This document shows, piece by piece, positions 27,401-48,021 of a stretch of 64,000 bases of DNA. The stretch lies in assembly GCF_000757385.1 (NCBI RefSeq), contig NZ_JRHH01000005.1:372001-436000 (forward strand), written 5' to 3'. Position numbers and translations under genes: made by a program. The stretch is from Flavobacterium aquatile LMG 4008 = ATCC 11947. GTDB lineage: Bacteria; Bacteroidota; Bacteroidia; Flavobacteriales; Flavobacteriaceae. The notes beneath the pieces are model-generated. The model saw only the letters and a list, made by a program, of their open reading frames with translations, did no database searches and had not been told where the DNA came from. How positions within the stretch are numbered: the first letter of the stretch is position 1; every line of letters begins with the position of its first letter.

Positions 27401-27535
27401 TATTCACCAAGATATTCTCCAACAGAAGTTCCACCAAATACTTACCCAGCAGAACCAGTAATTAGTCCGGTAGGATTCGGAAATGGATCAGAATGGGAGA
27501 TTAGAACATACATACATATCAATATAGGAAAATAA
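24404..27535 (+). CDS. clan GH-A glycosidase fused to predicted outer-membrane beta-barrel
   Basis: A 1043-residue secreted protein; the signal peptide ends at HFHAQ. Residues about 28-390 form a TIM-barrel glycosidase of clan GH-A (GH2/GH5/GH72-like): INGMNWNYDPIG, NMGVNAVRQY, LLGNENN with the likely acid/base Glu168, and LFTEFGAD with the likely nucleophile Glu269. The exact family is not recognised. Residues about 395-1043 are made of many alternating amphipathic strands rich in aromatic and Gly residues, with loops between, and end in the strand EWEIRTYIHINIGK. This pattern suggests an outer-membrane beta-barrel. It is the first gene of the putative operon; the next gene starts 15 bases later. 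It may both cut and pass glucan fragments, but this is untested. Confidence 0.72.
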   Translation: MKKLILILIFCCFSSHFHAQSDKVTVLKDKEDFKLLVNNKPFFINGMNWNYDPIGTNYNYSLWKQSDDVIKAALDNEMGLLKNMGVNAVRQYTGIQPKWITYIYEKYGIYTMLNHSFGRYGLTINGSWVPNTEYSNPATRQLLLKETQAMIQEYKNTPGLLLFLLGNENNYGLFWDGAETENIPLEDRKSTKRAKDMYSIFNEAVVEMKKIDTSHPIAICNGDLLFLDIIAEECKDIDIFGTNMYRGVSFGNAFQEVKSKLNKPILFTEFGADAFNAIDNAEDQKSQAYYMVNNWKEIYQNAANLGKSGNSLGGFTFQFSDGWWKFGQTKNLDVHDSNASWSNGGYTNDFLQGQNNMNEEWFGVCAKGPVNPRGLYDLYPRAAYYSLKEAHNINPYEVGTTLEGINTHFSNIKLMDGVLKARGDKAALVGSSTDKLRISNLRAEFTTFNTGGSLITTPDDADPDATQYPNQLGFDHMQSYYVGVEGNPTPNMKANVNVNILGNVALNPINEIFYENRGRAQMVNTPDGPINVADANRVQIYNASYSWNEKYFDLRGFYRTGHYHWGYEGDFFGLYPEANYGPNLDIYNGEVSGFEFDGKKSLNGLKAAFGPQLWWGANPAVLLKYGTKLGKIDATAVYHEDIDDAASATTSIFIPQPKTRRATLHFKTKVDAFGLELGGIWGGQPLNGRTFQYATGTSGNYTVYDDKVKSSDNWGGKAKITFSSGKFNIYTQGAIMGLVANGGADATQTFTGWRLKDSGSGNQMNFLAGLTFNVNSNFQIAPNFLWQKPLVAAMPNDVDAPGRLRNIQSDPFIVRANRETLGGELLLTYDPTPATWMYEWDNDMSEDAKFAFSTGFVFRHLPTTQDAAIGFLSNRTSFAFENSAPAHDLWESNTRIVSKISPELGLITNFYFGNGQSNGSDARLIERIGGDMRLIYRKVKLTHSFKINDWGPFDYHRDFNLTYPVQLMLDLSTSVGKPDWFILPNTKIGIMGTWRSLDQYSPRYSPTEVPPNTYPAEPVISPVGFGNGSEWEIRTYIHINIGK

Positions 27536-27550
27536 TAAAAAAATTGAAAA

Positions 27551-29035
27551 ATGAAAAATCAAAAAAATAATTTTTTAAAACTTACTTTACTTCTAAGTTT
27601 GTTTTTAGTAGTAAATGTAAGTTGTGAAAGAGATTTATCAGATGATGCAGTACTTTCCACTTTTCCTAAAACAGCCGAAATTTTCACAGACGATTTCGTA
27701 GGTTTGGGAAGTGATTTTTATAAACCTTACGGTGATTCTAAATTCACCGCATTTTCTGTAGATCTTGAACAAGGTTACGAAAGCAATTCTTCTATACGTA
27801 TTGATGTACCAAATGCAACCGATCCTGAAGGCGCTTATGCTGGAGGTATTTTTGTAATTGATGGTGCAGGACGCAATTTAACTGATTTCGATGCCTTAAC
27901 ATTTTATGTAAAAGCTTCTCAAGGTGTTACTGTTGGTGAGTTTGGATTTGGAGAAGATTTTGCAGAAAATAAATTCATCACAACAATCACGAATGTAGGA
28001 GTTGGAACAAACTGGACTAAAATTACCATTCCAATTCTGGATGCCTCAAGGTTATTGCAAGAAAGAGGAATGTTTAGATATGCTGCTGGAACAAATAGTA
28101 CAAATGGTTTTGGCTTCACATTATGGATAGATGAAATTAAATTCGAAAAATTAGGAACTAATAATTTACTTTATCCTTTTATTTTAAATGGAGATGATAA
28201 CAGCGTAGATGGATTTGCAGGATCAAATCAAATAATTACCGGATTAGGTGCGGTTTATAGTTTGGCAAATGGTCAAAATATAACAATTAATGCAGCTCCT
28301 TCCTATTTCAATTTCAATGTTTCAAATACTTCTGTTGCAAGTCCTGTAGCATTAAATAATCTTGGTCAAATCTTTACAAGTGTTATTGGTACTTCTGGTT
28401 CAGCAGTGGTTACCGCTCAAGTAGATAATACATTAGCACAAGGATCTTTAACAATAAATGCTGTTGGTGCATTTCCACATGCTCCAGTGCCAACAAGGCC
28501 AGCATCATCTGTAGTGTCATTGTTCAGTGATGAATACAATAATTTGCCAGTTAGACATTACAATGGTTTCTTTTCGGGTTCAAATACTCAAGGAGGTGCA
28601 GGTAATGATCCTAACAATGTAGATATTCAGGCACCATTTATAAATGGTTCCATTGACAACATTATTAATTATACACAATTAGATTTTGTCAGCATAGGAA
28701 TGTATGAAACTGTACCGAGAGTAAATATTAGTGGAATGACTCATATGCATGTTGATATCAATGTAAAGCAAGCTGTAGCTGCGTCTAATTTTATTAGAAT
28801 AGAACTTCATAGTAGTCTTGCTAATGGACCAACAACGTCTTCTGGATCTTTTGTACTTAATGCAGCTTCTTTAACTAATGTTGATGTAAATGGATGGGCT
28901 AGCATTGATATTCCTATTTCAAGCTTCCCTGGATTCAATGATGCTACAAATCTTGGACAGGTGTTTTTTGTGTCTGGAAATCCCGGTGGAATATTTAATA
29001 TCTGGGTAGACAACGTTTATTTTTATGCACAATAA
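27551..29035 (+). CDS. surface glycan-binding lipoprotein (two CBM-like domains)
   Basis: A 494-residue lipoprotein with the lipobox NVSC. After the Cys, residues about 45-215 form a jelly-roll of CBM type (DFDALTFYVKA, GFTLWIDEIKFE). Next is an Ig-like BIG2-style stretch (about 215-305). A second CBM-like domain (about 312-494) starts PTRPASSVVSLFSDEY and ends FNIWVDNVYFY; it matches the second domain of the secreted protein at 19800. No glycosidase motif is seen. It probably holds glucan at the cell surface, as SusE/F or SGBP proteins do in classical loci. Co-transcribed with both neighbours (gaps of 15 and 24 bases). Confidence 0.75.
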   Translation: MKNQKNNFLKLTLLLSLFLVVNVSCERDLSDDAVLSTFPKTAEIFTDDFVGLGSDFYKPYGDSKFTAFSVDLEQGYESNSSIRIDVPNATDPEGAYAGGIFVIDGAGRNLTDFDALTFYVKASQGVTVGEFGFGEDFAENKFITTITNVGVGTNWTKITIPILDASRLLQERGMFRYAAGTNSTNGFGFTLWIDEIKFEKLGTNNLLYPFILNGDDNSVDGFAGSNQIITGLGAVYSLANGQNITINAAPSYFNFNVSNTSVASPVALNNLGQIFTSVIGTSGSAVVTAQVDNTLAQGSLTINAVGAFPHAPVPTRPASSVVSLFSDEYNNLPVRHYNGFFSGSNTQGGAGNDPNNVDIQAPFINGSIDNIINYTQLDFVSIGMYETVPRVNISGMTHMHVDINVKQAVAASNFIRIELHSSLANGPTTSSGSFVLNAASLTNVDVNGWASIDIPISSFPGFNDATNLGQVFFVSGNPGGIFNIWVDNVYFYAQ

Positions 29036-29059
29036 TTAGTAAAACTTTAAAAAAGAAAA

Positions 29060-29893
29060 ATGAAAAATATAAATTATAAAATAAGTGTATTATCACTTGG
29101 TTTTTTGGGGTTAATCTTCAGTATTTATTCTTGTGACGATGACGAAAAACAAACCGTAGTCACCAAATTCGACTTGGTTATGGAAGATAATTTTGATGTC
29201 AATGGAGCACCAGATCCATCAATATGGGCTTATGACATTGGAAGAGGTTCTGAAAACAATGGTTGGGGAAATAATGAATTGCAATATTATACAGATAGTC
29301 CGGATAATGTTGTTGTTCAAAATGGTTATTTGATAATCACAGCAAAGCAAGAAGCTCTTGGAGGTGCAAGTTATACTTCTGCTCGATTGAAAACTCAAAA
29401 TTTATTTGATCAAAAATATGGTCGTTTTGAGGCTCGTATCAAACTACCACTAGGTCAAGGTCTATGGCCAGCTTTTTGGATGTTAGGAAGTAATATTGAT
29501 CAAGTTGGTTGGCCACAATGTGGAGAAATTGATATCATGGAATATTTAGGAAATAATCCAACTCAAATTTTAGGAACGCTTCACGGGCCAGGTTTTTCTG
29601 GTGGAGAAAGTATTAGTAAAAAATATTCTTTACCTAATAGTAGATTCGATAATGAGTTCCACGTTTTTGGAGTTGAATGGTCAGAAAATCACATCAATTG
29701 GTATGTGGATGATGTACTTTATAATCAAATAACCAGAAAACAAGTTGAAGATGAAGGTGGAGAATGGGTTTTTGATAATTCATTTTTTATGATTTTAAAT
29801 ATGGCTGTTGGTGGAAATTTACCAGGTAGTCCAAATAGTAGTACAACTTTCCCACAAAGAATGCTTGTAGATTATGTTAGAGTTTATCAATAA
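29060..29893 (+). CDS. GH16 beta-glucanase lipoprotein (laminarinase-like)
   Basis: A 277-residue lipoprotein with lipobox SIYSC followed by DDDE, an acidic start typical of surface-exposed Bacteroidetes lipoproteins. The rest is a single GH16 domain. The catalytic motif CGEIDIMEYLG gives nucleophile Glu156 and acid/base Glu161. Supporting motifs are NNELQYYTD, GLWPAFWMLG, FHVFGVEWSENHINWYVDD and MILNMAVGGNLPG. This GH16 type is mostly endo-beta-1,3-glucanase (laminarinase). It likely makes the first cuts at the surface. Confidence 0.92.
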   Translation: MKNINYKISVLSLGFLGLIFSIYSCDDDEKQTVVTKFDLVMEDNFDVNGAPDPSIWAYDIGRGSENNGWGNNELQYYTDSPDNVVVQNGYLIITAKQEALGGASYTSARLKTQNLFDQKYGRFEARIKLPLGQGLWPAFWMLGSNIDQVGWPQCGEIDIMEYLGNNPTQILGTLHGPGFSGGESISKKYSLPNSRFDNEFHVFGVEWSENHINWYVDDVLYNQITRKQVEDEGGEWVFDNSFFMILNMAVGGNLPGSPNSSTTFPQRMLVDYVRVYQ

Positions 29894-29910
29894 ATAATAA
29901 ATATAGAACC

Positions 29911-30678
29911 ATGAACAAATCAATAAAAATAGTTAGTTTATTATTAGTCTTACTAAGCTTTTTAGCTTGTGATAATAATGATGACTCAGTTCAAAATAAT
30001 ACATTAAGTTCACGATATACTTACATTAGAGAAGCATCACCGGGTGTAATTACGTTTATAAATACTTCTGAAAATGCAGATACTTATCTTTGGGATTTTG
30101 GTGACGGAACAACTTCAATTTTAAAAAATCCAGTAAAAGCATTTACGCAAACGGGTGAATATGTAGTTAATCTAACAGCAAAAAACACTAAAACTGGTGA
30201 AGTAAATTCATATAGTAGTACAATTTCAATATTTGTTTTTCAAGGTGGATTAGTAACCAATGGTAATTTTGAAAGTGGAACTTCTCCATGGACTTTTGGT
30301 GTTACAAATGCTATTGGTCCTTCTTTATTGGTAACTGACAGCGGAAATACGTATTTTTCTATAAATGTGGCAGCAGCAGGCAATCCTTATGATGTAAATC
30401 TATCACACATAGGAATTAATATGATTCAAGGTAAAACTTATAGACTAACCTTTGATGCTTGGTCTAACGTCAATAGAACTATGATTGTAGGTATTGGGTT
30501 AAGTGGTAATCCATTTACAAATCAATCTGTTACACGGAACTTGACGACTTCAGTTGAAAGTTTTAGTATTGATCTAGTGGCTAATTTTACAAACACTAAT
30601 TCTAGAGTAATTTTCGATATGGGTGCAGCAATCGGTACAGTAAATATTGATAATGTAACCTTGAACGAACTTCCTTAA
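29911..30678 (+). CDS. PKD-CBM glycan-binding lipoprotein
   Basis: A 255-residue lipoprotein with lipobox SFLAC followed by DNNDD. Residues about 35-108 are a PKD domain (TYLWDFGDGTTS, FTQTGEYVVNLTA). Residues about 112-255 are a CBM4/9-like jelly roll (GGLVTNGNFESGTSPWTFG, INMIQGKTYRLTFDAWS, NIDNVTLNEL). CBM4 modules often bind beta-1,3 or beta-1,4 glucans. No catalytic motif. It fits a surface glycan-binding protein working beside the GH16 lipoprotein 17 bases upstream. Confidence 0.82.
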   Translation: MNKSIKIVSLLLVLLSFLACDNNDDSVQNNTLSSRYTYIREASPGVITFINTSENADTYLWDFGDGTTSILKNPVKAFTQTGEYVVNLTAKNTKTGEVNSYSSTISIFVFQGGLVTNGNFESGTSPWTFGVTNAIGPSLLVTDSGNTYFSINVAAAGNPYDVNLSHIGINMIQGKTYRLTFDAWSNVNRTMIVGIGLSGNPFTNQSVTRNLTTSVESFSIDLVANFTNTNSRVIFDMGAAIGTVNIDNVTLNELP

Positions 30679-30813
30679 ACAAAAAAATATAATTTAATAA
30701 ATAATAGAAGTAGGCATTCATTTTCGAATAATTTACTTCAATAAATTAAACTTTCAAATTTGTCTAGAAGTGGATTTGGAGATGAATAAACTATTAACAA
30801 TCGAACTGATTTT

Positions 30814-33800
30814 ATGCAATTAATTGAAATAAAAGGTGAAAAGTATTATAGAATAGAAAACTCCGATCGAATGCGACCATTCTTTATGAGTATCGTTAGT
30901 GATTCCAATCATTGGATGTTTATTTCTAGTAATGGCGGATTAACAGCAGGAAGAAAAAATGCAGAATTTGCTCTTTTTCCATATTATACTGATGATAAAA
31001 TAACCGAATTTGCTGATATTACTGGAAGTAAAACTATTTTTCAAATTGCATATAATAATGAAAAATATATTTGGGAACCTTTTTCAGAACGATTTAATGA
31101 TAAGTATAATTTAACTCGAAATTTATACAAAAACGAGGTTGGCAATAAAATCATTTTTGAAGAAATTCACAATGATTTTCAATTGACTTTCAGATACCAA
31201 TGGAGTTCTAGTAATATATTTGGCTTTGTAAAAAATTCTGAAGTAATTAATAATTCTAAAAATGACTATAAAATAACACTCCTCGATGGAATTCAAAATG
31301 TTTTACCTCAAGGAGTAAATAGTGATCTGCAAGCCACTACAAGTAATTTAGTAGATGCTTACAAAAGAAACGAACTTCATTCAGAAAGTGGTTTAGGAAT
31401 TTTTGCTCTAAGTGCCATTATTGTTGATAAAGCCGAACCTAGTGAAGCGCTAAAAGCAAATATCGCTTGGTCTTTAGGTCTTGATAATCCAACTTATTTG
31501 CTTTCTTCATTGCAACTTTCTGCTTTTAGAAAATTTCAAAATGTGCATCAAGAGACCGATATTAAAGGTGAAAAAGGTGCATATTTTGTTTCAACTGATT
31601 TATTTTTGACAAAGAGTTCTTCTAAATCTTGGAAGATTATTGCTAATGTAAATCAAAATCAAGCGCAAGTTATTCAATTAGCAGATGCTATTTGTAATGA
31701 TGAAACCCTTGACAATCAAATAATTCAAGATGTTGAATTAGGAAATCAAAATCTTATTGCTCTAAATGCAACTGCCGACGGATTACAATTCACTGCAGAC
31801 AAACGTAAAGATACACGTCATTTTTCAAATGTTTTATTCAACATTATGCGTGGTGGAATTTTTGACAATAACTATACGATTGAGAAAAATGATTTTGTAA
31901 ATTACATAGCTAAAGCAAACAAGACTTTATTTAAAGAAGAAAGTAAATTTCTAAATGATTTACCAGAAACTTTTGATTATTCTCACCTTCAACAATTAAT
32001 TTCAAATAGTGAAAATGCCGATTTAAGTCGTCTTTGTACCGAATATCTTCCGCTTAAATTTAGTAGAAGACACGGTGATCCAAGTCGTCCATGGAACAAA
32101 TTTTCGATTAATACTAGAAGCGAAATAGATGGTTCTAAAATATTAGATTACGAAGGAAATTGGCGTGATATTTTTCAAAATTGGGAATCTTTAGCCAACG
32201 CTTATCCTGAGTTTATCGACGGAATGATTCACAAGTTTTTGAATGCCTCAACTTTTGATGGATACAATCCTTATCGCGTTACTAAAGATGGTTTTGATTG
32301 GGAAACCATTGAACCAGATAATCCTTGGTCTTACATCGGTTATTGGGGTGACCATCAAATTATCTATTTATTAAAGTTTTTAGAATTTATAGAGAATTAC
32401 CAACCAGGAAAACTAAACGCATATTTTGATAAAGAGTGTTTTGTTTATGCTGCGGTTCCTTACACAATAAAATCTTATCAAGATATTCTTAAAAACCCAA
32501 AAGATACTATAGAATTCAATCACGAATGGGATGCCAAAATTAATAAACGACGCAAGGAAAATGGTGCTGATGGTGCTTTATTAAGAGATAATAATGATGA
32601 AATTTATCATGTAAATCTAATCGAGAAATTATTAGCAACAGTTTTGGCAAAAATGTCCAATTTTATTCCAGAAGCAGGTATTTGGATGAATACCCAACGA
32701 CCAGAATGGAATGACGCTAATAATGCCTTGGTAGGTAACGGTGTTTCAATGGTTACTCTTTATTATTTGAGAAGATTTTTAAAGTTTTTCCAACAATTAT
32801 TAGATAATTCTAATCAAGAAACCATTAAGATTTCTAATGAAATGGTAGAGTTTTATCATGCCATAAGACAAATTTTATTAGATAATCAACATTTGTTATC
32901 AGGTTCAATCTCTGATGAAGAAAGACAAAAGATACTTAATGCTTTAGGTCAAGTCGCTTCCGAATATCGTTTTCAAATTTATAACAGCGGTTTTTGGGGT
33001 AAAAAGAGAACGCATTCAATGCAAGGATTGAAGAATTTTGCACAAGTTAGTATTGATTTTATCGAACATTCTATAAAAGCCAACCAAAGAGAAGATAAGT
33101 TGTATCACGCTTATAATTTAATGTCTATTGAAAATAAGGGTGTTTCTATTTCCTATTTACCAGAAATGCTTGAAGGTCAAGTAGCTATTTTAAGTTCAGG
33201 ATTTTTATCAGGTAAACAATCTTTAGAAGTATTAGATGCTTTAAGAAAAAGTGCCTTGTACAGAAAAGATCAAAACAGCTATATTTTATATCCAAATAAA
33301 GAACTTCCTAAGTTTTTAGAAAAGAATACGATTCCTAAAGAGAAAATTGAAAAGTCAGTTTTGTTGAATAAACTTTTAGCAAATAACAACTTCCAACTAG
33401 TCAATAAAGACATTAAAGGAAACTATCATTTTAATGGTAATTTTCATAATGCTAACGATTTAAAGAATGCTTTAGATCAATTGGCTTCTAATAATGATTA
33501 TAAAGAATTAGTTTTAAAAGATTCAGATGCTGTACTTCAAATATTTGAAGACGTATTCAATCACAAAGCTTTTACAGGTCGTTCAGGAACTTTTTATGGC
33601 TATGAAGGTTTAGGTTCCATTTATTGGCATATGGTTTCCAAGTTGTATTTAGCAGTAATGGAAGTTATCAATAAAGCTATCGAAAATAAAGAAGATGAAG
33701 CTGTAATTGATGCTTTAGTAAATCATTTTGATGAAGTTGGAGCCGGAATAGGAATTCATAAATCACCAGAAGTTTATGGTGCATTTCCAACTGATCCTTA

Positions 33801-34224
33801 TTCTCATACTCCTTTTGGTAAAGGCGCACAACAACCAGGAATGACAGGTCAAGTAAAAGAAGATATCCTAACTAGAATTGGAGAATTAGGCGTTAAAATG
33901 AAGGACGGAAAATTACAATTCCAACCAAGCTTCCTCAAAAAAGATGAGTTTTTATCAAAAGATACCGAAGTAACTTTTGTGATGCTTGACGGTTCAAAAA
34001 AAGTAATGAATCTTGAAAAAGACTCTTTAGCATTTACAACATGTCAAGTACCAGTTATTTATAAAATTAATACAACAAGTAAAATTGTTTTACACTATAA
34101 AAATGAGTCAACTAAAACTTTTGAAACATTAGAGTTAAGCGAAGAAGAAAGCAAGAAAATATTTGATAGAACCGATGAAATTTCATGGGTAGAAGTGTAT
34201 TTAAATGCATCTATTTTAAGATAA
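30814..34224 (+). CDS. beta-glucan phosphorylase, GH149-like (cytoplasmic)
   Basis: A 1136-residue protein without signal peptide, hence cytoplasmic. It has the build of the large GH94-related phosphorylases: an N-terminal beta-sandwich (FMSIVSDSNHWMFISSNGG, ADITGSKTIFQIAYNN), a long (alpha/alpha)6 region (about 400-900, with SRRHGDPSRPWNKFSI, DNPWSYIGYWGDHQIIYLLKF and WNDANNALVGNGVSMVTLYY) and a C-terminal beta domain. The length and the setting with GH16, GH17 and GH30 genes agree with GH149 beta-1,3-oligoglucan phosphorylases; GH161 enzymes are shorter. The expected reaction is beta-1,3-glucan plus phosphate to a shorter glucan plus glucose-1-phosphate. The 135-base gap upstream could hold an internal promoter. 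Its stop overlaps the next start by one base (TAATG). The family call is from recall and not verified. Confidence 0.75.
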   Translation: MQLIEIKGEKYYRIENSDRMRPFFMSIVSDSNHWMFISSNGGLTAGRKNAEFALFPYYTDDKITEFADITGSKTIFQIAYNNEKYIWEPFSERFNDKYNLTRNLYKNEVGNKIIFEEIHNDFQLTFRYQWSSSNIFGFVKNSEVINNSKNDYKITLLDGIQNVLPQGVNSDLQATTSNLVDAYKRNELHSESGLGIFALSAIIVDKAEPSEALKANIAWSLGLDNPTYLLSSLQLSAFRKFQNVHQETDIKGEKGAYFVSTDLFLTKSSSKSWKIIANVNQNQAQVIQLADAICNDETLDNQIIQDVELGNQNLIALNATADGLQFTADKRKDTRHFSNVLFNIMRGGIFDNNYTIEKNDFVNYIAKANKTLFKEESKFLNDLPETFDYSHLQQLISNSENADLSRLCTEYLPLKFSRRHGDPSRPWNKFSINTRSEIDGSKILDYEGNWRDIFQNWESLANAYPEFIDGMIHKFLNASTFDGYNPYRVTKDGFDWETIEPDNPWSYIGYWGDHQIIYLLKFLEFIENYQPGKLNAYFDKECFVYAAVPYTIKSYQDILKNPKDTIEFNHEWDAKINKRRKENGADGALLRDNNDEIYHVNLIEKLLATVLAKMSNFIPEAGIWMNTQRPEWNDANNALVGNGVSMVTLYYLRRFLKFFQQLLDNSNQETIKISNEMVEFYHAIRQILLDNQHLLSGSISDEERQKILNALGQVASEYRFQIYNSGFWGKKRTHSMQGLKNFAQVSIDFIEHSIKANQREDKLYHAYNLMSIENKGVSISYLPEMLEGQVAILSSGFLSGKQSLEVLDALRKSALYRKDQNSYILYPNKELPKFLEKNTIPKEKIEKSVLLNKLLANNNFQLVNKDIKGNYHFNGNFHNANDLKNALDQLASNNDYKELVLKDSDAVLQIFEDVFNHKAFTGRSGTFYGYEGLGSIYWHMVSKLYLAVMEVINKAIENKEDEAVIDALVNHFDEVGAGIGIHKSPEVYGAFPTDPYSHTPFGKGAQQPGMTGQVKEDILTRIGELGVKMKDGKLQFQPSFLKKDEFLSKDTEVTFVMLDGSKKVMNLEKDSLAFTTCQVPVIYKINTTSKIVLHYKNESTKTFETLELSEEESKKIFDRTDEISWVEVYLNASILR

Positions 34225-35474
34225 TGAAAAATCTGATTTACATCATATTACTAATGTTTATATCATGTAAACCAACTAATACAAGAAATTTAGTTTCAAA
34301 AGAAATGACGGCAGAAAAATTATTAGGAAATACAAATTATCAAGCGATTTGTTACGGTGGATACAGAGCAAATTCTAGAGAAATTCAACCAACAATATCA
34401 GAAATAAAAGAAGATTTAAGAATTCTTTCTGCATTGAATATTAAAGTATTACGAACTTATAATGTGCATTATGAAGAAGTAGTAAATTTATTAAAAGCCA
34501 TAACAGAACTAAAAAAAGAAGATGAAAATTTTGAAATGTATTTAATGCTAGGTGCTTGGATTGATTGTAAAAATGCATGGACAAATTTGCAACCAATTCA
34601 TAATGAAGAAAGTAAAAGAAATGCAATTGAGATTGAAGAAGCGGTAAGATTAACAAACAAATATCCTGAAATAATCAAAATTATAGCCGTTGGAAATGAA
34701 GCGATGGTGAAATGGGCAACTAGTTATTATGTCACGCCAAACATCATTTTGAAATGGGTAAACCATTTACAGAATTTAAAGAAAGAGAATAAATTACCTA
34801 AACAGGTTTGGATAACAAGTTCCGATAATTTTGCTTCTTGGGGCGGACATACTGCCGATTATCATGTGGAAGATTTGAATCAATTGATTAAAGCAGTAGA
34901 TTATATTTCGATGCATACTTATCCAATGCACGACACACATTATCACCCAATTTTTTGGGGAATAAAAGAGAATGAATTGCAATTCCCTGAAAAAGAGAAA
35001 GTAGATGCTGCAATGTTGAGAGCCAGAAATTATGCCATTAATCAATACGAAAGTGTTGTAAGTTATATGAAGTCAATTGGCGTAAATAAACCAGTTCATA
35101 TTGGTGAAACTGGTTGGGCAACAAAGTCAAATGAACATTATGGAAATGATGGTTCAAAGGCAACAGATGAATACAAATCAGCTTTGTATTATGATTTAAT
35201 GAGAGAATGGAGCAACAAAAATAATATTTCGTGTTTCTATTTTGAAGCTTTTGATGAAAATTGGAAAGATGCTGCCAATCCGTTAGGTTCAGAAAATCAT
35301 TTTGGATTAATTAATTTGCAATCACAAGCCAAATATGTGCTTTGGAAAAATGTAGATAGTGGAACTTTTAAGGGTTTAACTAGAGATGGAAAACCAATAA
35401 CAAAAACCTATAACGGCGATGAAAAAGCTTTATGGTTGGATGTAAAAACGCCAAATTCTATTTTAAAGAATTAA
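34224..35474 (+). CDS. GH17-family glucanase lipoprotein
   Basis: A 416-residue lipoprotein. The start was set at the ATG in TAATG, overlapping the phosphorylase stop, since it gives MKNLIYIILLMFISC with a lipobox; a longer frame into the upstream gene is unlikely. GH17 motifs are VLRTYNVHYEEV, IIAVGNEAMV with acid/base Glu159, YISMHTYPM, and HIGETGWATKSNEH with nucleophile Glu295. FYFEAFDENWK closes the barrel. GH17 enzymes hydrolyse or transfer beta-1,3-glucan. Unlike the two GH17 domains downstream, this one is exported. Five bases separate it from the GH30 gene. Confidence 0.85.
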   Translation: MKNLIYIILLMFISCKPTNTRNLVSKEMTAEKLLGNTNYQAICYGGYRANSREIQPTISEIKEDLRILSALNIKVLRTYNVHYEEVVNLLKAITELKKEDENFEMYLMLGAWIDCKNAWTNLQPIHNEESKRNAIEIEEAVRLTNKYPEIIKIIAVGNEAMVKWATSYYVTPNIILKWVNHLQNLKKENKLPKQVWITSSDNFASWGGHTADYHVEDLNQLIKAVDYISMHTYPMHDTHYHPIFWGIKENELQFPEKEKVDAAMLRARNYAINQYESVVSYMKSIGVNKPVHIGETGWATKSNEHYGNDGSKATDEYKSALYYDLMREWSNKNNISCFYFEAFDENWKDAANPLGSENHFGLINLQSQAKYVLWKNVDSGTFKGLTRDGKPITKTYNGDEKALWLDVKTPNSILKN

Positions 35475-35479
35475 AATAA

Positions 35480-36994
35480 ATGGTAAATAACAAGGGTAAA
35501 ATAGTAGAGAGTAAATTTTTGACAATAGCTTGTATTATGGCATTCTCATTGCATAGTTGTAAAGTTGCTGATAAATTAAACGTTCAAGTTTATGAAACTT
35601 CCGAACGTGGAAATTCATTGACAAAAATTACCCAATTTTCAAACGAAGGAACTCCAATTGTTGTTTCCATTAATCCTGATGAAAAATTTCAAACTATTAC
35701 TGGTTTCGGAGGTTCTTTCACCGAATCTTCGGCTTATTTACTCAATCGATTGAGTAAAGAAAATCGTAAGAAAATTTTAGATGCTTACTTCAGTGAGTCA
35801 GGCGCCAATTATTCGCTTACCAGAACTCACATAGCTTCTTGCGATTTTTCGTTAAGCAATTACACCTATGCCAAGGTAGAAAATGACATGACTTTGGAAC
35901 ATTTTACCATAGAAGACGATAAATCCGATTTAATTCCGATGATATTAGAAGCAAAAGCAATTTCTAAAGAAGGTTTTAAAATCATTTCTTCACCTTGGTC
36001 ATGTCCGCCATGGATGAAAGACAATAAAAAATACGTAGGTGGAAAATTACTACCAGAATTCAATGATGCATTCGCTTTGTATTTTTCAAAATATCTAAAC
36101 GCTTACAAAAAAGAAGGCATTGATATTTGGGGTGTTACCGTGATAAACGAACCACACGGAAATGGAAACAATTGGGAAAGCACTCTTTTTTCGCCAAAAG
36201 AAATGACCGATTTTGTAATGAATCACATGGGACCAAAATTAGAAAAAGACGGTTGGGGAAATGTGAAGATTTTTGGATATGACCAAAACCGTGCAGGTAT
36301 CAAAGAATGGGCAAACGAAATGTATAAAGATGAAAACACATCTAAATATTTTGACGGAATGGCAATTCATTGGTATGAAAGTACCTATGAAGTTTTTCCA
36401 GAAGATTTACAATACGCACACCAAAAAGCACCCAACAAATATTTAATTGAAACAGAAGGTTGTGTAGATTCTGAAATTCCGCATTGGCAAGATGACGCTT
36501 GGTATTGGAAAAAAGAAGCCACCGATTGGGGTTGGGATTGGGCAAGTGAAAAAGAAAAATATTTGCATCCAAAATACGCTCCAGTAAACCGTTATGCAAA
36601 TGATATAATAGGATGTTTAAACAATAGAGTAGATGGATGGATTGATTGGAACATGGTTCTTGACAGACAAGGCGGACCAAATTGGTTCAAAAATTGGTGC
36701 GTAGCTCCAGTTATTGTAGATGATAAAAATGATGAAGTTTATCTTACACCTTTATATTATGTGATGGCTCATTTCAGTAAGTTCATGCGACCTGGTGCTG
36801 TTAAAATTGGTTGTGAGATAAATTCTAAAGAATTGGTTTCAACTGCTGTCCAAAATCAAGATGGCTCTATCGCAATTGCAATTTTTAATCCAACAGAATC
36901 TAAACAAACAATTGATATCAAATTAAATAATAAAAATACTTTAATCTCAATTGATTCAAAAGCATTACAAACTATAATAATCAAACCAAACTAA
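35480..36994 (+). CDS. GH30-family beta-glucosidase/beta-1,6-glucanase lipoprotein
   Basis: A 504-residue lipoprotein (FSLHSC lipobox after a basic N-terminus). It is a GH30 enzyme: FQTITGFGGSFTESSAYLL, IISSPWSCPPWMKDN, TVINEPHGNGNNWE with acid/base Glu224, MAIHWYE, YLIETEGCVD with nucleophile Glu326, and the C-terminal beta-sandwich (GSIAIAIFNPTESKQTIDI). Subfamilies 1 and 3 include beta-glucosidase and endo-beta-1,6-glucanase; the latter would remove the beta-1,6 branches of laminarin. The subfamily cannot be settled by eye. Export as a lipoprotein puts it at the outer membrane or in the periplasm. Confidence 0.9.
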   Translation: MVNNKGKIVESKFLTIACIMAFSLHSCKVADKLNVQVYETSERGNSLTKITQFSNEGTPIVVSINPDEKFQTITGFGGSFTESSAYLLNRLSKENRKKILDAYFSESGANYSLTRTHIASCDFSLSNYTYAKVENDMTLEHFTIEDDKSDLIPMILEAKAISKEGFKIISSPWSCPPWMKDNKKYVGGKLLPEFNDAFALYFSKYLNAYKKEGIDIWGVTVINEPHGNGNNWESTLFSPKEMTDFVMNHMGPKLEKDGWGNVKIFGYDQNRAGIKEWANEMYKDENTSKYFDGMAIHWYESTYEVFPEDLQYAHQKAPNKYLIETEGCVDSEIPHWQDDAWYWKKEATDWGWDWASEKEKYLHPKYAPVNRYANDIIGCLNNRVDGWIDWNMVLDRQGGPNWFKNWCVAPVIVDDKNDEVYLTPLYYVMAHFSKFMRPGAVKIGCEINSKELVSTAVQNQDGSIAIAIFNPTESKQTIDIKLNNKNTLISIDSKALQTIIIKPN

Positions 36995-37023
36995 GCAAAT
37001 AATTTAATAACAATACCTAAATT

Positions 37024-39369
37024 ATGTCAAATACTAATTCAACATCTTCAGGAAAAGTTCCATTCGGGCAAAAAATAGCTTTCGGATTAGGAATGTTGGC
37101 AAACCAAATGTTCCCTGCTGCTTTAGGAATTTTTACAGTTGTATTAGTTGAACAATTGGGCTTTAGCGGATTGTTGTTAGGTTTAACGTATTTTATTCCA
37201 AAATTTTATGATGCTTTATTTGATTTGATAATGGGTTATGTGAGTGATAATACAAAATCAAAATGGGGAAGAAGAAGACAATATGTATTAGCTGGAGCAA
37301 TAATTCTAGGAATTTCATTTGCATTAATGTGGCAATTGTATGCTGAAAACGGTGTAACATACAATTTTTGGTACTTTTTAGTGATTTCATTGGTTTTTTA
37401 TTCAGGTTTGACCATATTCAGTATTCCTTATGTTGCAATGGGTTACGAAATGAGTGATGATTTTCACGAACGAACCAATATTATGGCTACTTCGCAACTT
37501 ATAGGTCAGTTGGCTTGGGTTGTTGCACCATGGTTTTGGGTTATAATGGCAGATAAATCATTGTTTCCATCAGGTGATGTGGCTGTAAGAACCTTAGCTG
37601 TATATGTTGCAATAGGTTGCGCCATTTTAGCAGCAATTCCTGCATTTTTTATTCCAAGTAAATCTACACTCAACGAAGATTACAGCCCGATTGATTTAAA
37701 AGGAATCCTCGGAAGTTTTGGCGAAATCAAAGAAGGATTGAAAGCTTCAATCGAAATTAAACCATTCAGAAAAATTTGTATTGCTACTTTTTTAATTTTT
37801 AATGCTTTTCAAACTACAGCAGCATTTTCGTATTTTATCATCAAGTATTATTTGTTTAAAGGAAATGAAGACGGTTTCGGATTATGGCCTACTTTATTTG
37901 GAAGTGTAGGTGCAATTATCACAACGGTTGCGGTGATTCCTATTGTAGCAAGAATGTCAAAAACAATGGGAAAAAAGAAAGCGTTTTTGGTATCTCAAGG
38001 CATTTCTGTAATCGGTTACATTTTGCTTTATGTTTTATTTGTTCCAGGAAAACCGTATCTTTTTTTGTTTGCATTGCCATTTTTCTCCTTCGGAATTGGA
38101 AGTTTGTTTACCTTAATGATGTCAATGACTTCGGATGTTATCGATATTGATGAACTCAACACAGGCAAAAGAAGAGAAGGAAGTTTAGGCGCTATTTATT
38201 GGTGGATGGTAAAATTTGGAACAGCTGTTGCAGGATTGTTAAGTGGATTAATTCTTTCATTAGTTGCATTTCAGTCCAATGCTGCTACACAAACCGATGA
38301 AACCATGTTTTGGCTTCGAATATTCTTTGTAGGAGTTCCAATTATTGGTACTTTAAGTGCAATTTGGGTAATGAGAAATTATGATATTGACGAAGCCAAA
38401 GCCAGAGAAGTGAGAGATCTTTTAGATAAACGAAAAGGGAAAACAAAAAATCAATCATCCGCTTATCTTTCTGGAAAATTGGTATCATTATTAAAAAATG
38501 GTTCTATAAATACTACTATTGATAGCGAATTGAATACTAAAAGCGAGACTGAATTAAAAACTATTTATTCTGAAATACTAAATAATGGATTACACGGATT
38601 ATGTTTCAGTCCTTATGTAGAAAACCAAAAAGCTGGCGATATTCTTTCTGCAGATCAAATTAGAAGAAGATTAGATATTATTACACCTCATACGAGTTGG
38701 ATTAGGTCTTTCTCATGTACCGAAGGTAACGAGTTAATACCAGAAATTGCTCATCAAAAAGGACTTAAAACAGTAGTAGGAGCATGGATTAGCAATGATA
38801 AAGTTAGAAACGAAAAAGAAATTGAAACGCTTATAAAGTTAGCAAAATCAGGTTTAGTTGATATTGCCGCAGTAGGAAACGAAGTATTACACCGTAACGA
38901 AATCTCTGAACAAGAACTTATTACATATATTAAACGAGTGAAAGAGGCATTGCCAAATATTCAAGTAGGATATGTTGATACTTATTATCAATTTTTAGAA
39001 AGACCAAATTTAGTTTCGAGTTGCGATTTACTACTAGTTAATTTCTATCCATTTTGGGAAGGTGCAAATATTGATTATACAACATCCTATTTGCAAAACA
39101 TGATGGAAGTAACTAGAAATGTAGCTCAAGGAAAGAAAATTATAATTTCTGAAACTGGTTGGCCAAGTAAAGGAGAAACGGTTGAAGAAGCAATTCCATC
39201 AGAAATTAATGCTATGAAATATTTTGTTTCTTCTCAAACATGGGCAAAAAATAATACTATTGAGCTATTCCATTTTTCTTCTTTTGACGAATCTTGGAAA
39301 GCCTTGCAAGAAGGAACTGTAGGAACAGCATGGGGAATTTGGGATAAAAATGAGAAGCTTAAATTTTAA
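37024..39369 (+). CDS. GPH-type MFS sugar transporter fused to C-terminal GH17 domain
   Basis: A 781-residue fusion. Residues 1 to about 450 hold 12 membrane helices of a GPH/MFS sugar symporter, with the family motif DALFDLIMGYVSDNTKSKWG followed by RRRQ between helices 2 and 3. A basic linker (about 455-500) leads to a full GH17 domain (about 505-781): WIRSFSCTEGNE, IAAVGNEVLHRNE with acid/base Glu620, IIISETGWPSKGE with nucleophile Glu710, and FHFSSFDESWK. The positive loop after helix 2 and the even helix number place both termini, and so the GH17 domain, in the cytoplasm. The frame is continuous and the linker has no stop, so this is one gene. It may import and process beta-glucan oligosaccharides in one step (inference). 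Confidence 0.88.
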   Translation: MSNTNSTSSGKVPFGQKIAFGLGMLANQMFPAALGIFTVVLVEQLGFSGLLLGLTYFIPKFYDALFDLIMGYVSDNTKSKWGRRRQYVLAGAIILGISFALMWQLYAENGVTYNFWYFLVISLVFYSGLTIFSIPYVAMGYEMSDDFHERTNIMATSQLIGQLAWVVAPWFWVIMADKSLFPSGDVAVRTLAVYVAIGCAILAAIPAFFIPSKSTLNEDYSPIDLKGILGSFGEIKEGLKASIEIKPFRKICIATFLIFNAFQTTAAFSYFIIKYYLFKGNEDGFGLWPTLFGSVGAIITTVAVIPIVARMSKTMGKKKAFLVSQGISVIGYILLYVLFVPGKPYLFLFALPFFSFGIGSLFTLMMSMTSDVIDIDELNTGKRREGSLGAIYWWMVKFGTAVAGLLSGLILSLVAFQSNAATQTDETMFWLRIFFVGVPIIGTLSAIWVMRNYDIDEAKAREVRDLLDKRKGKTKNQSSAYLSGKLVSLLKNGSINTTIDSELNTKSETELKTIYSEILNNGLHGLCFSPYVENQKAGDILSADQIRRRLDIITPHTSWIRSFSCTEGNELIPEIAHQKGLKTVVGAWISNDKVRNEKEIETLIKLAKSGLVDIAAVGNEVLHRNEISEQELITYIKRVKEALPNIQVGYVDTYYQFLERPNLVSSCDLLLVNFYPFWEGANIDYTTSYLQNMMEVTRNVAQGKKIIISETGWPSKGETVEEAIPSEINAMKYFVSSQTWAKNNTIELFHFSSFDESWKALQEGTVGTAWGIWDKNEKLKF

Positions 39370-39381
39370 AAATTACGAATC

Positions 39382-40314
39382 ATGTCATTTAGAGAAGGTC
39401 ACTATTTTTCATTAGAAGATAATTATAATAACAGCAAGAATAATACGAACAAAAGCGATTATCAAAGTTTTGATTTTTCTGAAATTTCAGCAAAGAAATT
39501 AGCAGAACTTTGGAGAGAAACTTTGGATAATGGTATGCATGGAATTTGCTTCAGTTTATACGAAGACGGACAAAAACCCGGTGATATTATTACTGCTGAA
39601 CAAGTTAATCGACGTATTCAAATTCTTAAGCCATATGCTAAATGGGTTCGTTCTTTTTCATGTATTGAAGGTAACGAACATATTCCAAGAATTGCTCATG
39701 AAAACGGAATGCAAACACTAGTCGGAGCTTGGCTTGGAGACGATTTAGAACTAAACGAAAATGAAATAGAGAGTTTAATCACATTAGCTAAAGAAGGGTG
39801 TGTAGATATAGCAGCAGTTGGAAACGAAGTAATGTACCGAGGTGATTTAACCGAAGATCAATTGTTGGAATATATTAAACGAGTTAAAGAAGCTTTGCCA
39901 AATATTCCAGTAGGTTATGTTGATGCTTATTATGAATTTTCACACCGACCAAGAATTACTGAGATTTGTGATGTGATTTTGACAAATTGTTATCCTTATT
40001 GGGAAGGCTGTCCAATTGAATATTCGTTACCTCACATGCAAAGTATGTTTGGCTCTGCTAAAGATGCTGGAAAAGGAAAACGAGTTATAATTACAGAAAC
40101 AGGTTGGCCAAGCGAAGGCGGATCACTAAAAGGTGCCATCGCAACCAACGAGAATGCCATGAGATACTTTATTGAAACTCAAAATTGGTGTAAAAACAAT
40201 GACATTGAAACATTTTATTTTTCTTCTTTTGACGAATCATGGAAAGTTGGGCCAGAAGGTGCTGTAGGAGCTTATTGGGGTTTATGGGATAAAAATGAAA
40301 TATTAAAATTCTAA
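39382..40314 (+). CDS. GH17-family enzyme without signal peptide
   Basis: A 310-residue stand-alone GH17 domain. It is closely similar to the GH17 half of the preceding fusion (shared KWVRSFSCIEGNEHIP, DIAAVGNEVMYRGD, YIKRVKEALPNI, ITETGWPSEGG, FYFSSFDESWK), so the two arose by tandem duplication. Catalytic residues are Glu149 (acid/base) and Glu239 (nucleophile). No signal peptide or lipobox, so it is expected in the cytoplasm beside the phosphorylase. It starts 12 bases after the fusion gene. Confidence 0.88.
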   Translation: MSFREGHYFSLEDNYNNSKNNTNKSDYQSFDFSEISAKKLAELWRETLDNGMHGICFSLYEDGQKPGDIITAEQVNRRIQILKPYAKWVRSFSCIEGNEHIPRIAHENGMQTLVGAWLGDDLELNENEIESLITLAKEGCVDIAAVGNEVMYRGDLTEDQLLEYIKRVKEALPNIPVGYVDAYYEFSHRPRITEICDVILTNCYPYWEGCPIEYSLPHMQSMFGSAKDAGKGKRVIITETGWPSEGGSLKGAIATNENAMRYFIETQNWCKNNDIETFYFSSFDESWKVGPEGAVGAYWGLWDKNEILKF

Positions 40315-40388
40315 AAGAAATTAGATTTATATAATTTAAAAGAGTTGAAACGAGTTTAGCTTTTTAAATTCAAAGAATAATAAAAAAA

Positions 40389-42143
40389 ATGCTCGCTATG
40401 AAATCGAAGATTCACGAATACCTGAAAAGCAATAATCAACACTTGATTAAAAAAAATACTTTTTTAAAAATTTGCTTAACACTTTTGTTATCCTGTCAAT
40501 TTGGATTTTCTCAAGTTGATGTCGTTTACAGTAACTTAGTTTGGTCGGATGAATTTGAAACTAATGGTGCTGTAAATGCTTCTAAATGGCATCATCAAAC
40601 ACAATTACCTTCTGGTGGAAGTTGGTTTAATGGAGAAGTGCAACATTACACAAATCAGCTTACAAATTCATCGGTTAATGCAGGGTTTCTAAATATTGTT
40701 GCCAAAAAAGAGCCTTACACCGATCAAGGAATTACAAAGCAATATACTTCGGCTAGATTAAATTCTAAATTTGCTTTTCTTTATGGTCGCGTAGATATTC
40801 GAGCTAAAGTTCCCACAGATCAAGGAACATGGCCAGCTTTATGGTTATTGGGTAAAAACGTAAATGAAGATGGCGGATATTTCGATACAACTTATGGTAC
40901 AACTGATTGGCCAGCCTGCGGAGAAATTGATATTATGGAACACGGAATCACTCCATCACAACCTACAAACTATGTGCAAAGCGCACTTCACACACCTTCA
41001 TCATTCGGAAATACTACAAATATTGGTGGAACAATTGCCAACAATTTAGGAACCGATTATCACGTGTATTCTATGAACTGGTCGCCTTATCAAATAACTT
41101 TTCTGCTTGATGGTGTAGCTTATTATACTTACAATCCTGCTGTAAAAACTCCAAGTAATTGGCCTTTTACTTCAGAACAATATTTGTTGTTAAACATCGC
41201 AATGGGCGGAATTGCTGGAACAATACCTGCAAGTTTTACACAAACAGCAATGGATGTTGATTACGTTAGAGTTTATCAAAATACTTTGGTAGATACTCAA
41301 GCGCCAACCAATTTCACAGCAACAATTGGAACGGTTACAAGTTCTACGATTGAGTTACTATTAAACGCAAACGACAATTCAGGAAATGTAGCTTACAACA
41401 TTGTCTATAGTGGTGGAACAATTTCGGTTGCTAATCCTGCAGGAGTTCAGAAATCGGTTGTTGTACCTAATTTGACGTCTAATACTAATTATAGTTTCAC
41501 CGTTTCTGCAAGTGATTTGGCAGGAAATAATTTCGTTTCCAATCCACTAGTTGTAAGTGCTACTACAACAGGAGTTATTGGATGTTCAGGAACAAGTTCG
41601 GCCGCACAAACAGGCTCATTTTCTACAGGATACAACTACACTTTTGAAACTTTAGGAACGGATGTAAAAATCACTTTTGAAATGTTAGACACAGACAAAG
41701 TTGGAGTAGTAGCCTTTCTTTGGAAACAAAGTCCATTTTCTGAATCTCAAATGACCAATGTTTCCGGAAATACTTTTACTCAAACAATTACTGGCCAAAC
41801 AATTGGTTCTACTATAAGCTACGCAGTCAAATTTGCTTATGCTGGAGGATTATCGGTTACTAATTATTACACTTATGTGGTTGGAAATAATTGTGCTTTA
41901 AATGTCATATCAAATAATGAATTAGAAAATCTTACTTTCATAAATCCTGTTGAAAATTATTTAAATATCAATTCTCAATCTACTATCGATAAAGTTGAAA
42001 TTTTCGACTTACTTGGCAAGTTGGTGCTATCAACTTCAATTAACACTAATAACGTCGATGTTCGTAACTTAAATAAAGGTTTTTATTTACTAGCCGTTTA
42101 TTCTGGAGATAAAAAAAGCGTAAAGAAAATTATAGTAAAATAG
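40389..42143 (+). CDS. secreted multidomain GH16 beta-glucanase with T9SS C-terminal domain
   Basis: A 584-residue secreted enzyme. The N-terminus is long; the signal peptide core is FLKICLTLLLSCQFGFSQ, and the ATG three codons in is an equal start choice. GH16 spans about residues 45-300: WFNGEVQHYTNQ, TWPALWLLGKN, CGEIDIMEHG with nucleophile Glu179 and acid/base Glu184, and VDYVRVYQ. Then follow a fibronectin-III-like domain (about 302-395), a beta-sandwich probably of CBM type (about 397-505), and a type A T9SS sorting domain (about 510-584, FINPVENYLNI, VEIFDLLGKLVL, KGFYLLAV). It closes the glucan operon, followed by a strong terminator. Confidence 0.9.
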   Translation: MLAMKSKIHEYLKSNNQHLIKKNTFLKICLTLLLSCQFGFSQVDVVYSNLVWSDEFETNGAVNASKWHHQTQLPSGGSWFNGEVQHYTNQLTNSSVNAGFLNIVAKKEPYTDQGITKQYTSARLNSKFAFLYGRVDIRAKVPTDQGTWPALWLLGKNVNEDGGYFDTTYGTTDWPACGEIDIMEHGITPSQPTNYVQSALHTPSSFGNTTNIGGTIANNLGTDYHVYSMNWSPYQITFLLDGVAYYTYNPAVKTPSNWPFTSEQYLLLNIAMGGIAGTIPASFTQTAMDVDYVRVYQNTLVDTQAPTNFTATIGTVTSSTIELLLNANDNSGNVAYNIVYSGGTISVANPAGVQKSVVVPNLTSNTNYSFTVSASDLAGNNFVSNPLVVSATTTGVIGCSGTSSAAQTGSFSTGYNYTFETLGTDVKITFEMLDTDKVGVVAFLWKQSPFSESQMTNVSGNTFTQTITGQTIGSTISYAVKFAYAGGLSVTNYYTYVVGNNCALNVISNNELENLTFINPVENYLNINSQSTIDKVEIFDLLGKLVLSTSINTNNVDVRNLNKGFYLLAVYSGDKKSVKKIIVK

Positions 42144-46711: not shown

Positions 46712-47983
46712 TTATAATGTAAATCCGTCAGGTAAAATTGCACCTTTTTTCACTACAATAATTCCGTCTTTAATAGTATATAAATTGGTATTTGTGTCTT
46801 CAAGATGACTGCCGCCATTTAGTCGAACATCGTTTCCAATTCTACAATTTTTATCTACAATGGTGTGATTTATAAAACATCTGTCGCCAATTCCGATATT
46901 GATAATTCCATTCTCGGAATTGTGTCTAATTTCCTCTAGATTTTGATAATAATCGTTACCCATTAAATACGAATTTGTAACGGTCGAACCATAACCAACA
47001 CGGCTTCTAATTCCGATTACAGAATGTTCGATTTGTGCGCCGTTTATGATGCAACCTTCTGCAACAACCGATTTGTCAATTGTTGTTGCACCAGTAATTT
47101 TTGATGGAGGCAAAACCCTTGCACGTGTATAAATTTTACTAGAATTATCAAATAAATTGAACTTCGGAATATCATCTGTTAATCCTAGATTGGCTTCGAA
47201 AAACGAGTCTATGTTTCCGATATCCGTCCAATAACCTTCGTATTGATAACTCAAAATCTTCTGTTTTCCAATGGCTTGCGGAATAATTTCTTTCCCAAAA
47301 TCTTTAGTGTCAGGATTAGACATTAACTCAATTAAAAGCTCACGATTGAAAATATAAATACCCATCGAAGCGAGATAATGTTTTCCTTCGGCTTTAGATT
47401 CGTCACTTACTTCCGATGTCCATTCGGGTAATAAACTAGCATTTGGTTTTTCTATAAATGAAGTAATTAAATTCTCAGAATCGGTTTTTAAAATTCCAAA
47501 TTCAGAGGCTTCTTTAGCAGTAACTGGTAATGTAGCAATAGAAATTGTTGCACCACTTTTTTCGTGAGCATCAATCATTTTATTGAAATTCATATGATAC
47601 AATTGATCGCCCGAAAGTATTAAAGCATAGTCAAATTCGTGATTTAAAAAATGGTTCATACATTGACGTACAGCATCGGCAGTTCCTTGAAACCAAGTTG
47701 GATTATCTGGTGTTTGTTCGGCTGCAAGAATATCAACAAAAGCAGTACTAAAATGACTAAAGTGATAGGTATTTTTAATGTGTTGGTTTAGCGAAGCCGA
47801 ATTGAATTGGGTTAAAACAAACATCCTTTTGATATCAGAATTAATACAATTGGAGATTGGAATATCAACCAAACGGTATTTTCCTGCAATTGGAACTGCT
47901 GGTTTAGAACGACTTTCGGTTAATGGGTATAATCTAGAACCTTGTCCGCCACCTAAAATTATGGCTAATGCACTTTTTTTCAT
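46712..47983 (-). CDS. glgC: glucose-1-phosphate adenylyltransferase
   Basis: A 423-residue ADP-glucose pyrophosphorylase, which makes ADP-glucose from glucose-1-phosphate and ATP for glycogen. The N-terminal nucleotidyltransferase motif ILGGGQGSRLYPLT, the KPAVPIAGKYRLVDIPISN segment, WFQGTADAV and the YWTDIGNIDSFFEAN motif are all present. The C-terminal left-handed beta-helix is seen from about residue 290 (hexad-like repeats, CIINGAQIEHSVIG). The ATG of MKKSALAI was chosen over a TTG three codons upstream. It follows the GT4 synthase gene by 38 bases on the same strand, forming a glycogen pair. Confidence 0.95.
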   Translation of the reverse strand: MKKSALAIILGGGQGSRLYPLTESRSKPAVPIAGKYRLVDIPISNCINSDIKRMFVLTQFNSASLNQHIKNTYHFSHFSTAFVDILAAEQTPDNPTWFQGTADAVRQCMNHFLNHEFDYALILSGDQLYHMNFNKMIDAHEKSGATISIATLPVTAKEASEFGILKTDSENLITSFIEKPNASLLPEWTSEVSDESKAEGKHYLASMGIYIFNRELLIELMSNPDTKDFGKEIIPQAIGKQKILSYQYEGYWTDIGNIDSFFEANLGLTDDIPKFNLFDNSSKIYTRARVLPPSKITGATTIDKSVVAEGCIINGAQIEHSVIGIRSRVGYGSTVTNSYLMGNDYYQNLEEIRHNSENGIINIGIGDRCFINHTIVDKNCRIGNDVRLNGGSHLEDTNTNLYTIKDGIIVVKKGAILPDGFTL

Positions 47984-48021
47984 CTGAATCAATTTTAAAT
48001 TGGATTGTGGTTTTTATTGAT

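Follow-up and report, generated by a model that had tools for sequence, protein, structure and literature searches.

The gene at positions 37024–39369 on the + strand of the window (the whole 64,000 nt stretch of the Flavobacterium aquatile genome that was analysed) encodes, with a probability that we put at about 0.7, a cation-coupled importer of short beta-1,3-gluco-oligosaccharides whose last helix is followed, on the cytoplasmic side, by a GH17 domain of the FbGH17B type. This explanation builds on the architecture of the protein, its intact active sites, its gene context and the split between fused and free GH17 domains.

In kind, the fusion is already known, and the F. aquatile gene is a further example. 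A 2023 report by Sidhu and colleagues on North Sea bloom MAGs included such proteins. Its accessible text states that most expressed variant 1 laminarin PULs had at least one MFS-GH17 fusion, and names, in addition to Bacteroidota, the gammaproteobacterial SAR92, Luminiphilus and SAR86 MAGs (PMC10108472). Unfried et al. described the same fusion in Formosa in 2018, called it common among marine Flavobacteriia, and cloned FbGH17B, which broke down the oligosaccharides from debranched laminarin to glucose (PMC6246565, accessible portion). In the open-access papers that we read, with subscription journals mostly outside this scope, we found no statement on the cytoplasmic side of the fused GH17 domain, the two-clade split or a second fusion, and what is new here is the predicted side of the tethered enzyme, a proposed division between two enzymes, and a probable second fusion.

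A transporter and a GH17 domain in a single open reading frame

The single open reading frame (ORF) of 781 aa starts with an MFS domain of the GPH type and ends with a GH17 domain, which confirmed the initial annotation, made from the DNA letters, of an unbroken frame uniting a 12-helix GPH/MFS transporter with a complete GH17 domain. The first domain matched MFS_2 (Pfam PF13347) at residues 20–457 (E 1.6e-61, 208.6 bits against a cut-off of 27). Pfam Glyco_hydro_17 matched residues 703–781 only, with E 1.8e-11 and a score of 44.7 bits, above its cut-off of 28.2, but as the beta-1,3-glucanosyltransferase of PDB entries 4wtp and 4wtr was aligned across residues 542–767, the GH17 domain is complete despite this short match. 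The features of the gene are as follows.

37024–39369, + strand: MFS(GPH)-GH17 fusion gene, 781 aa (ORF and Pfam; 95 fused ORFs counted in related loci)
37063–38436, + strand: MelB-type (MFS_2) symporter domain, residues 14–471, with 12 transmembrane helices and a further helix at 457–471, predicted to be cytoplasmic (Pfam, AlphaFold2, MelB overlay)
38437–38544, + strand: linker, residues 472–507, with a basic start and pLDDT <50 at 473–480 (AlphaFold2)
38545–39366, + strand: GH17 (beta/alpha)8 domain, residues 508–781 (Pfam, 4wtp/4wtr alignment, AlphaFold2, fold search)
38881–38883, + strand: codon of Glu620, acid/base (Glu in 105/105 fused and 133/133 standalone domains)
38890–38892, + strand: codon of His623 (acid/base Glu+3), at the place equivalent to Tyr136 of MlGH17B (comparison of fused and standalone domains; role of Tyr136 from PMC11005184, accessible portion)
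39151–39153, + strand: codon of Glu710, nucleophile (Glu in 91/91 fused domains; its counterpart in 4wtr is Ala)

Both glutamates had been proposed as catalytic in the initial annotation, and this was borne out, as the pair is invariant in all 91 fused GH17 domains of our first set. Glu620 lies within the GNE motif which holds the acid/base residue, and Glu710 aligns with a Glu in 4wtp and with an Ala in 4wtr, listed by the fold search as an active-site mutant. The same search placed 4wtr at a TM score of 0.86 by target length, with 28% identity to the fused barrel. These structures are of RmBgt17A from Rhizomucor miehei (PDB 4wtp, 4wtr and 4wts), which resembles the fused domain in fold and catalytic pair, but is a fungal, single-domain protein.

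A sequencing error near the linker had been named as a possible weakness; we searched the stretch 38390–38540 for a stop or frameshift and found neither, so the frame is intact there. A sequencing or assembly artefact, or a split gene, was ruled out by the 95 fused ORFs in related loci, and the recurrence of GPH-GH17 fusions in genomes of the family and phylum likewise shows that the fusion is not an assembly artefact.

The GH17 domain is predicted to be cytoplasmic

Structure prediction of the full protein with AlphaFold2 (49 sequences, mean pLDDT 85.9) gave 12 transmembrane helices, then the helix at 457–471, and the barrel from residue 508 onward, with a pTM of 0.61, at which the position and orientation of the barrel beneath the channel are not fixed by the model. 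The even number of helices, together with the basic loop after helix 2, had been the original grounds for placing the enzyme inside the cell, where an odd number would have placed it outside, and these grounds are now supported by further predictions. With the tails excluded, the inside loops held on average 19.3 Lys and Arg residues versus 2.9 in the outside loops, and were the richer of the two in 49/49 homologues. The model overlays MelB over its whole length (Z 39.9 for 442 residues, model 11–475 on chain 2–455), the sequence alignment with MelB spans residues 16–470, and no hydrophobic stretch was found between residue 451 and the barrel. In MelB the C-terminal tail lies on the cytoplasmic side, and a cytoplasmic salt-bridge network has among its members R141, D351, D354 and R363 (PMC8437787, accessible portion), which correspond in the alignment to R150, D371, D374 and R383 of the fusion, all invariant in the 49 sequences. 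By prediction, both ends of the transporter, and the GH17 domain with them, are cytoplasmic.

In the accessible part of PMC5827456, a GH17 (COG5309) that accompanies an MFS pfam13347 transporter within GH149 clusters is termed cytoplasmic. PMC6246565 refers to two enzymes as 'likely residents of the periplasm' in a sentence that does not name them; no explicit side for the fused GH17 domain was found in the accessible portion of the latter paper. A periplasmic GH17 domain, handing its cut products to the transporter, would match the wording 'hydrolysis and product uptake' in print (PMC6246565 and PMC13188888, accessible portions), and GH17A and GH30 of the same cluster do begin like periplasmic lipoproteins, as judged by eye. 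Such an arrangement is nonetheless hardly credible in view of the 12 helices, the positive-inside bias in every homologue, the MelB topology with its conserved cytoplasmic network, and the lack of a hydrophobic stretch before the barrel, and the cytoplasmic placement is retained below.

The transporter domain resembles MelB

In MelB, Asp55, Asp59 and Lys377 (helix XI) have roles in the cation site (PMC8437787, accessible portion), and these correspond to D63, D67 and K397 of the fusion, kept in 49/49 sequences. The profile match, the cation site and the predicted fold point to a cation-coupled, MelB-like symporter, which would presumably carry out sugar:cation symport. The score for the NCBIfam gph subfamily (TIGR00792) was below its cut-off (161.8 versus 231.35 bits), which makes the substrate class tentative, and the domain was filed as MFS_2, MelB-like and not as a TIGR00792 member. 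It shares with MelB of Salmonella, also a GPH protein, the fold, the cation-site residues and the cytoplasmic network, but the galactoside ligands Asp19 and Asp124 of MelB align with Gln28 and Ser133, and MelB has no enzyme tail.

An extra C-terminal domain at the cytoplasmic surface is also present in LacS of Streptococcus thermophilus, another GPH symporter (PMC10703360, accessible portion). The tail of LacS is a IIA regulatory domain, in contrast to the fusion, where the tail is an enzyme domain that we propose acts on the cargo. By analogy with the transport-regulating domain of LacS, the GH17 tail could be a regulator or anchor that senses cytoplasmic oligosaccharides and gates transport, with catalysis secondary; this is very unlikely, as both catalytic Glu residues are invariant in the 91 fused domains, and activity has been reported for the Formosa enzyme together with its KM and kcat/KM (PMC6246565, accessible portion).

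The fusion gene lies in a laminarin cluster

The genes on the + strand surrounding the fusion gene run from a regulator to a GH16 with a T9SS tail, in the order given below, and the gaps of 29 and 12 bases between the fusion and its two neighbours suggest that they belong to one operon.

21247–24045, + strand: Y_Y_Y/LuxR-type regulator, which may act as sensor for the cluster (profile search)
24404–27535, + strand: GH2-like TIM barrel protein (PF02836)
27551–29035, + strand: protein of unknown family, 494 aa, unmatched in Pfam and NCBIfam, perhaps a further part of the pathway (relatives in 30/44 full-flank laminarin loci)
29060–29893, + strand: GH16 (PF00722)
29911–30678, + strand: PKD/CBM4 protein with lipoprotein-like start, by eye (Pfam)
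30814–34224, + strand: GH149 beta-1,3-glucan phosphorylase, by eye lacking a signal peptide (scores 1789 bits with NCBIfam NF058639, above its cut-off of 1150)
34224–35474, + strand: GH17 lipoprotein, FbGH17A-like endo-laminarinase (GH17A; match to 6fcg, E 2.2e-177)
35480–36994, + strand: GH30 with lipoprotein-like start by eye, probable debranching beta-1,6-glucosidase (PF02055, 252.6 bits; separated by 29 bases from the fusion gene)
37024–39369, + strand: the fusion gene
39382–40314, + strand: standalone GH17, MlGH17B-like, no signal peptide by eye, Tyr at +3 (Pfam, residues; 12 bases after the fusion gene)
40389–42143, + strand: probable secreted laminarinase with GH16 and fn3 domains and a T9SS sorting tail (profile search)

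The start of GH17A at 34224 was set by eye from the lipoprotein signal, its ORF opening at 34185, and the GH30 protein also matches the endo-1,6-beta-glucanase family NF053856, below the cut-off of that family. The GH149, GH17A, GH30 and GH16 neighbours support a laminarin context for the fusion. Scans for promoters (106 sites versus 87.3 ± 8.6 in shuffled sequences) and terminators (6 versus 8.4 ± 3.1) were not used.

As in FORMB_24740/FbGH17B of Formosa sp. Hel1_33_131 (accessible portion of PMC6246565), both domains are in frame with a 12-TM MFS domain at the N-terminus and GH17 at the C-terminus, and the gene adjoins GH17A and GH30 (34224–36994) in the order GH17A-GH30-fusion. The place of Tyr136 is not Tyr in either protein, being Met in FbGH17B and His in the Flavobacterium fusion. 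The two differ in genus, and the Flavobacterium fusion has no adjacent SusD; the likeness is drawn from the description and published residues, not from sequence. The cluster is also like the variant 1 laminarin PULs of bloom MAGs in its GH149, GH17, GH30 and GH16 genes, a comparison made by description only (PMC10108472, accessible portion). A SusD gene is absent from the laminarin cluster at 24404–42143, the two SusD_RagB matches of the genome being on contigs C2 and C3 and the window on C5; the match on C2 is about 3 kb from a GH3 match. Elsewhere in the window, positions 9579–16400 encode a 2273 aa protein with a T9SS CHU_C tail as its sole Pfam match, which is likely to be a large secreted or surface protein.

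The fusion recurs in Bacteroidota

The initial annotation considered transport-hydrolase fusions of this kind rare and suggested a search for other proteins with both domains. That search gave 95 fused ORFs in 110 related loci plus the window, a number which includes the ORF under study, a duplicate (L001) and one cut by a contig end (L046). Their stop-to-stop length was 777–807 aa, except for 685 (cut by a contig end), 823 and 875. In genome samples drawn evenly from family and phylum, the GPH-GH17 fusion was present in at least 18/299 family genomes (16 of the window type and 2 in which the GPH part has diverged) and at least 15/395 phylum genomes (12 of the window type, plus L141, L145 and L146); these are lower bounds, as matches cut by contig ends or beyond those listed and retrieved stay uncounted, and the samples share some genomes, including that of F. 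aquatile. Together with the publications of 2018 and 2023, these counts do not bear out the supposed rarity. Among the matches listed, 24 genomes of the same genus (F. aquatile included) appeared, with a whole match in F. aquatile only; fused loci found by the likeness search do include records named Flavobacterium. The nearest named relative was F. dankookense DSM 25687, with 95% identity in the best segment, in a search from which the record of the window itself may be missing.

The gene directly upstream was GH30 in 64 and GH17A in 11 of 78 fused loci, and that directly downstream was a standalone GH17 in 68/78. GH149 was found in 67/78 fused loci and in 42 of the 44 with full flanks, and a separate standalone GH17 also in 42/44; as the loci were chosen by likeness to the 781 aa fusion, these shares, like those of fused ORFs and kept Glu residues, are inflated.

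Several candidates were rejected. Three-domain GPH-X-GH17 proteins (frames of 1025–1121 aa) were ruled out, as the DNA of L111–L116 contains neighbouring ORFs. L008, L011, L017–L019 and L022–L025 span the whole query but have internal stops and are split genes, as are L135–L137.

Fused and free GH17 domains form two clades

Two sets of GH17 domains were compared, the first with 91 fused and 102 standalone domains (after removal of two domains <230 aa and seven identical ones), and the second with 238 domains (105 fused and 133 standalone). A single branch separates fused from free domains in a quick tree of the 193 domains (SH-aLRT 88), with the placement of L108 unsure, and in the 238-domain tree 104/105 fused domains form one clade (FastTree support 99), the exception being L141. 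Thus, by sequence, fused and free GH17 are two clades. L108 itself is a long standalone branch beside the fused clade in the smaller tree, and the larger tree flagged a long-branch join of L108 with L010.

The free clade can be related to MlGH17B of Muricauda, a free GH17 that was termed cytoplasmic and acts as a transglycosylase; Tyr136, Trp191 and Glu192 were called crucial for this activity (PMC11005184, accessible portion). The free GH17 at 39382–40314 has all three, with the motifs GNEVMYR and YPYWEG, and by residues is its predicted counterpart. The fused domain shares with MlGH17B the catalytic residues and the Trp191/Glu192 pair (Trp678 and Glu679, kept in 91/91 fused domains), but differs in being part of a fusion and in having His623 in place of Tyr136, and so lacks the full set of transglycosylase residues. 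Tyr was found at this place in 122/133 standalone versus 6/105 fused domains (5/104 without L141); in the first set, standalone domains had Tyr in 92/102 and Trp and Glu in 102/102. A motif-anchored count, which caught only 66/105 fused and 100/133 standalone domains, was set aside. FbGH17B carries Met at place 136 (PMC11005184, accessible portion); it (AOR29491.1) and MlGH17B (WIW39500.1) were compared via published residue numbers, and the trees were built without either sequence. Thirteen positions separate fused from free GH17, among them 136, 274, 275 and 282 (MlGH17B numbering). The difference between Tyr and non-Tyr needs four changes on the tree, so that it marks the two clades and is no independent proof linking fusion to the absence of Tyr, and the trees, having no outgroup, do not decide between loss and gain of Tyr.

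It is conceivable, though rather unlikely, that the fused domain is itself mainly a transglycosylase, which would lengthen or kink incoming oligosaccharides and so trap them by blocking their backflow through a reversible symporter, with hydrolysis a minor activity. The closest solved structure is that of the glucanosyltransferase RmBgt17A, two of the three crucial residues are kept throughout the fused domains, the authors of PMC11005184 (accessible portion) allow for undetected transferase activity in FbGH17B, and one fused protein, L141, bears a domain of the transglycosylase type. Weighing more heavily, Tyr136 is replaced by His here and is uncommon in fused domains, residue 275, listed at subsite +1 of MlGH17B (PMC11005184, accessible portion), differs between the two groups, and FbGH17B was reported to release glucose (PMC6246565, accessible portion). 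We therefore favour hydrolysis by the fused domain.

In L141 (496–2958, − strand), a GPH transporter is joined to a free-type, Tyr-bearing GH17 domain, and its frame retains what appears to be the start of a free gene (MSFREE; the gene at 39382–40314 begins MSFREG). This combination of free-type domain and leftover gene start indicates that the fusion arose probably at least twice, L141 probably being a second, independent event. Furthermore, 46/152 related GPH domains are unfused, which makes the fusion dispensable, and they occur at many places between fused ones (17 changes on a GPH tree from which domains of short coverage and duplicates of identical sequence were left out); combined with the single clade of fused GH17, this scatter implies that the tail was lost repeatedly, or exchanged. 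L117, L121 and L146 have a GH17 domain of the fused clade on another GPH clade, which has inserts and an identity of about 40%, a pattern that suggests domain exchange between transporters; L118–L120 are close, unfused relatives of this GPH type.

A proposed route for laminarin oligosaccharides

From these data and from work on related enzymes we infer the substrate, the direction of transport, hydrolysis and any benefit of tethering, as follows. GH16, GH17A and GH30 would cut and debranch laminarin outside the cell and in the periplasm, after which the transporter domain would move linear oligosaccharides over the inner membrane. On the cytoplasmic side these would meet the tethered GH17, which may cleave them with release of glucose, as does the Formosa enzyme; the free downstream GH17 of the MlGH17B type could re-join or rearrange oligosaccharides by transglycosylation, and GH149 would phosphorolyse them to glucose 1-phosphate. 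Import is placed before the tethered cleavage because a cytoplasmic phosphorylase needs imported oligosaccharides and not glucose. Import of oligosaccharides with a DP of up to 4 into the cytoplasm has been proposed for Muricauda, where GH17 is free (PMC13188888, accessible portion).

We tentatively suggest, at somewhat less than even odds, that the published coupling of 'hydrolysis and product uptake' should be reversed for such fusions, in that oligosaccharides enter intact and then meet, on the cytoplasmic face, a tethered cutter where the importer opens inwards and a free transglycosylase, two old GH17 paralogues, which with GH149 trap and feed the glucan, and that tethering arose at least twice, including in L141. 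Two or more origins of tethering, one with a transglycosylase-type domain, would point to selection for channelling between importer and enzyme. The initial annotation had likewise proposed that each incoming oligosaccharide could be processed at the exit of the channel. The gain from tethering may be modest, as GH149 enzymes degrade beta-1,3-oligosaccharides down to DP 2 unaided (PMC6484121), so that the pathway could do without a further hydrolase, and many relatives have no tail.

Laminarin is one of the major storage sugars of algae, and the fusion is part of the clusters with which many Bacteroidota consume it. If the tail is cytoplasmic, as predicted, these cells import oligosaccharides and not only glucose, which alters the order of the steps and, through phosphorolysis by GH149, the energy balance. 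The split of the paralogues offers 13 candidate positions, including 136 and 275 (MlGH17B numbering), for hydrolysis versus transfer, and the naturally unfused relatives allow a fair comparison for the effect of tethering. About 12 kb from the GH149 gene, at 46712–49248, are genes for glgC (glucose-1-phosphate adenylyltransferase) and glycogen synthase, a possible sink for the glucose 1-phosphate formed by GH149.
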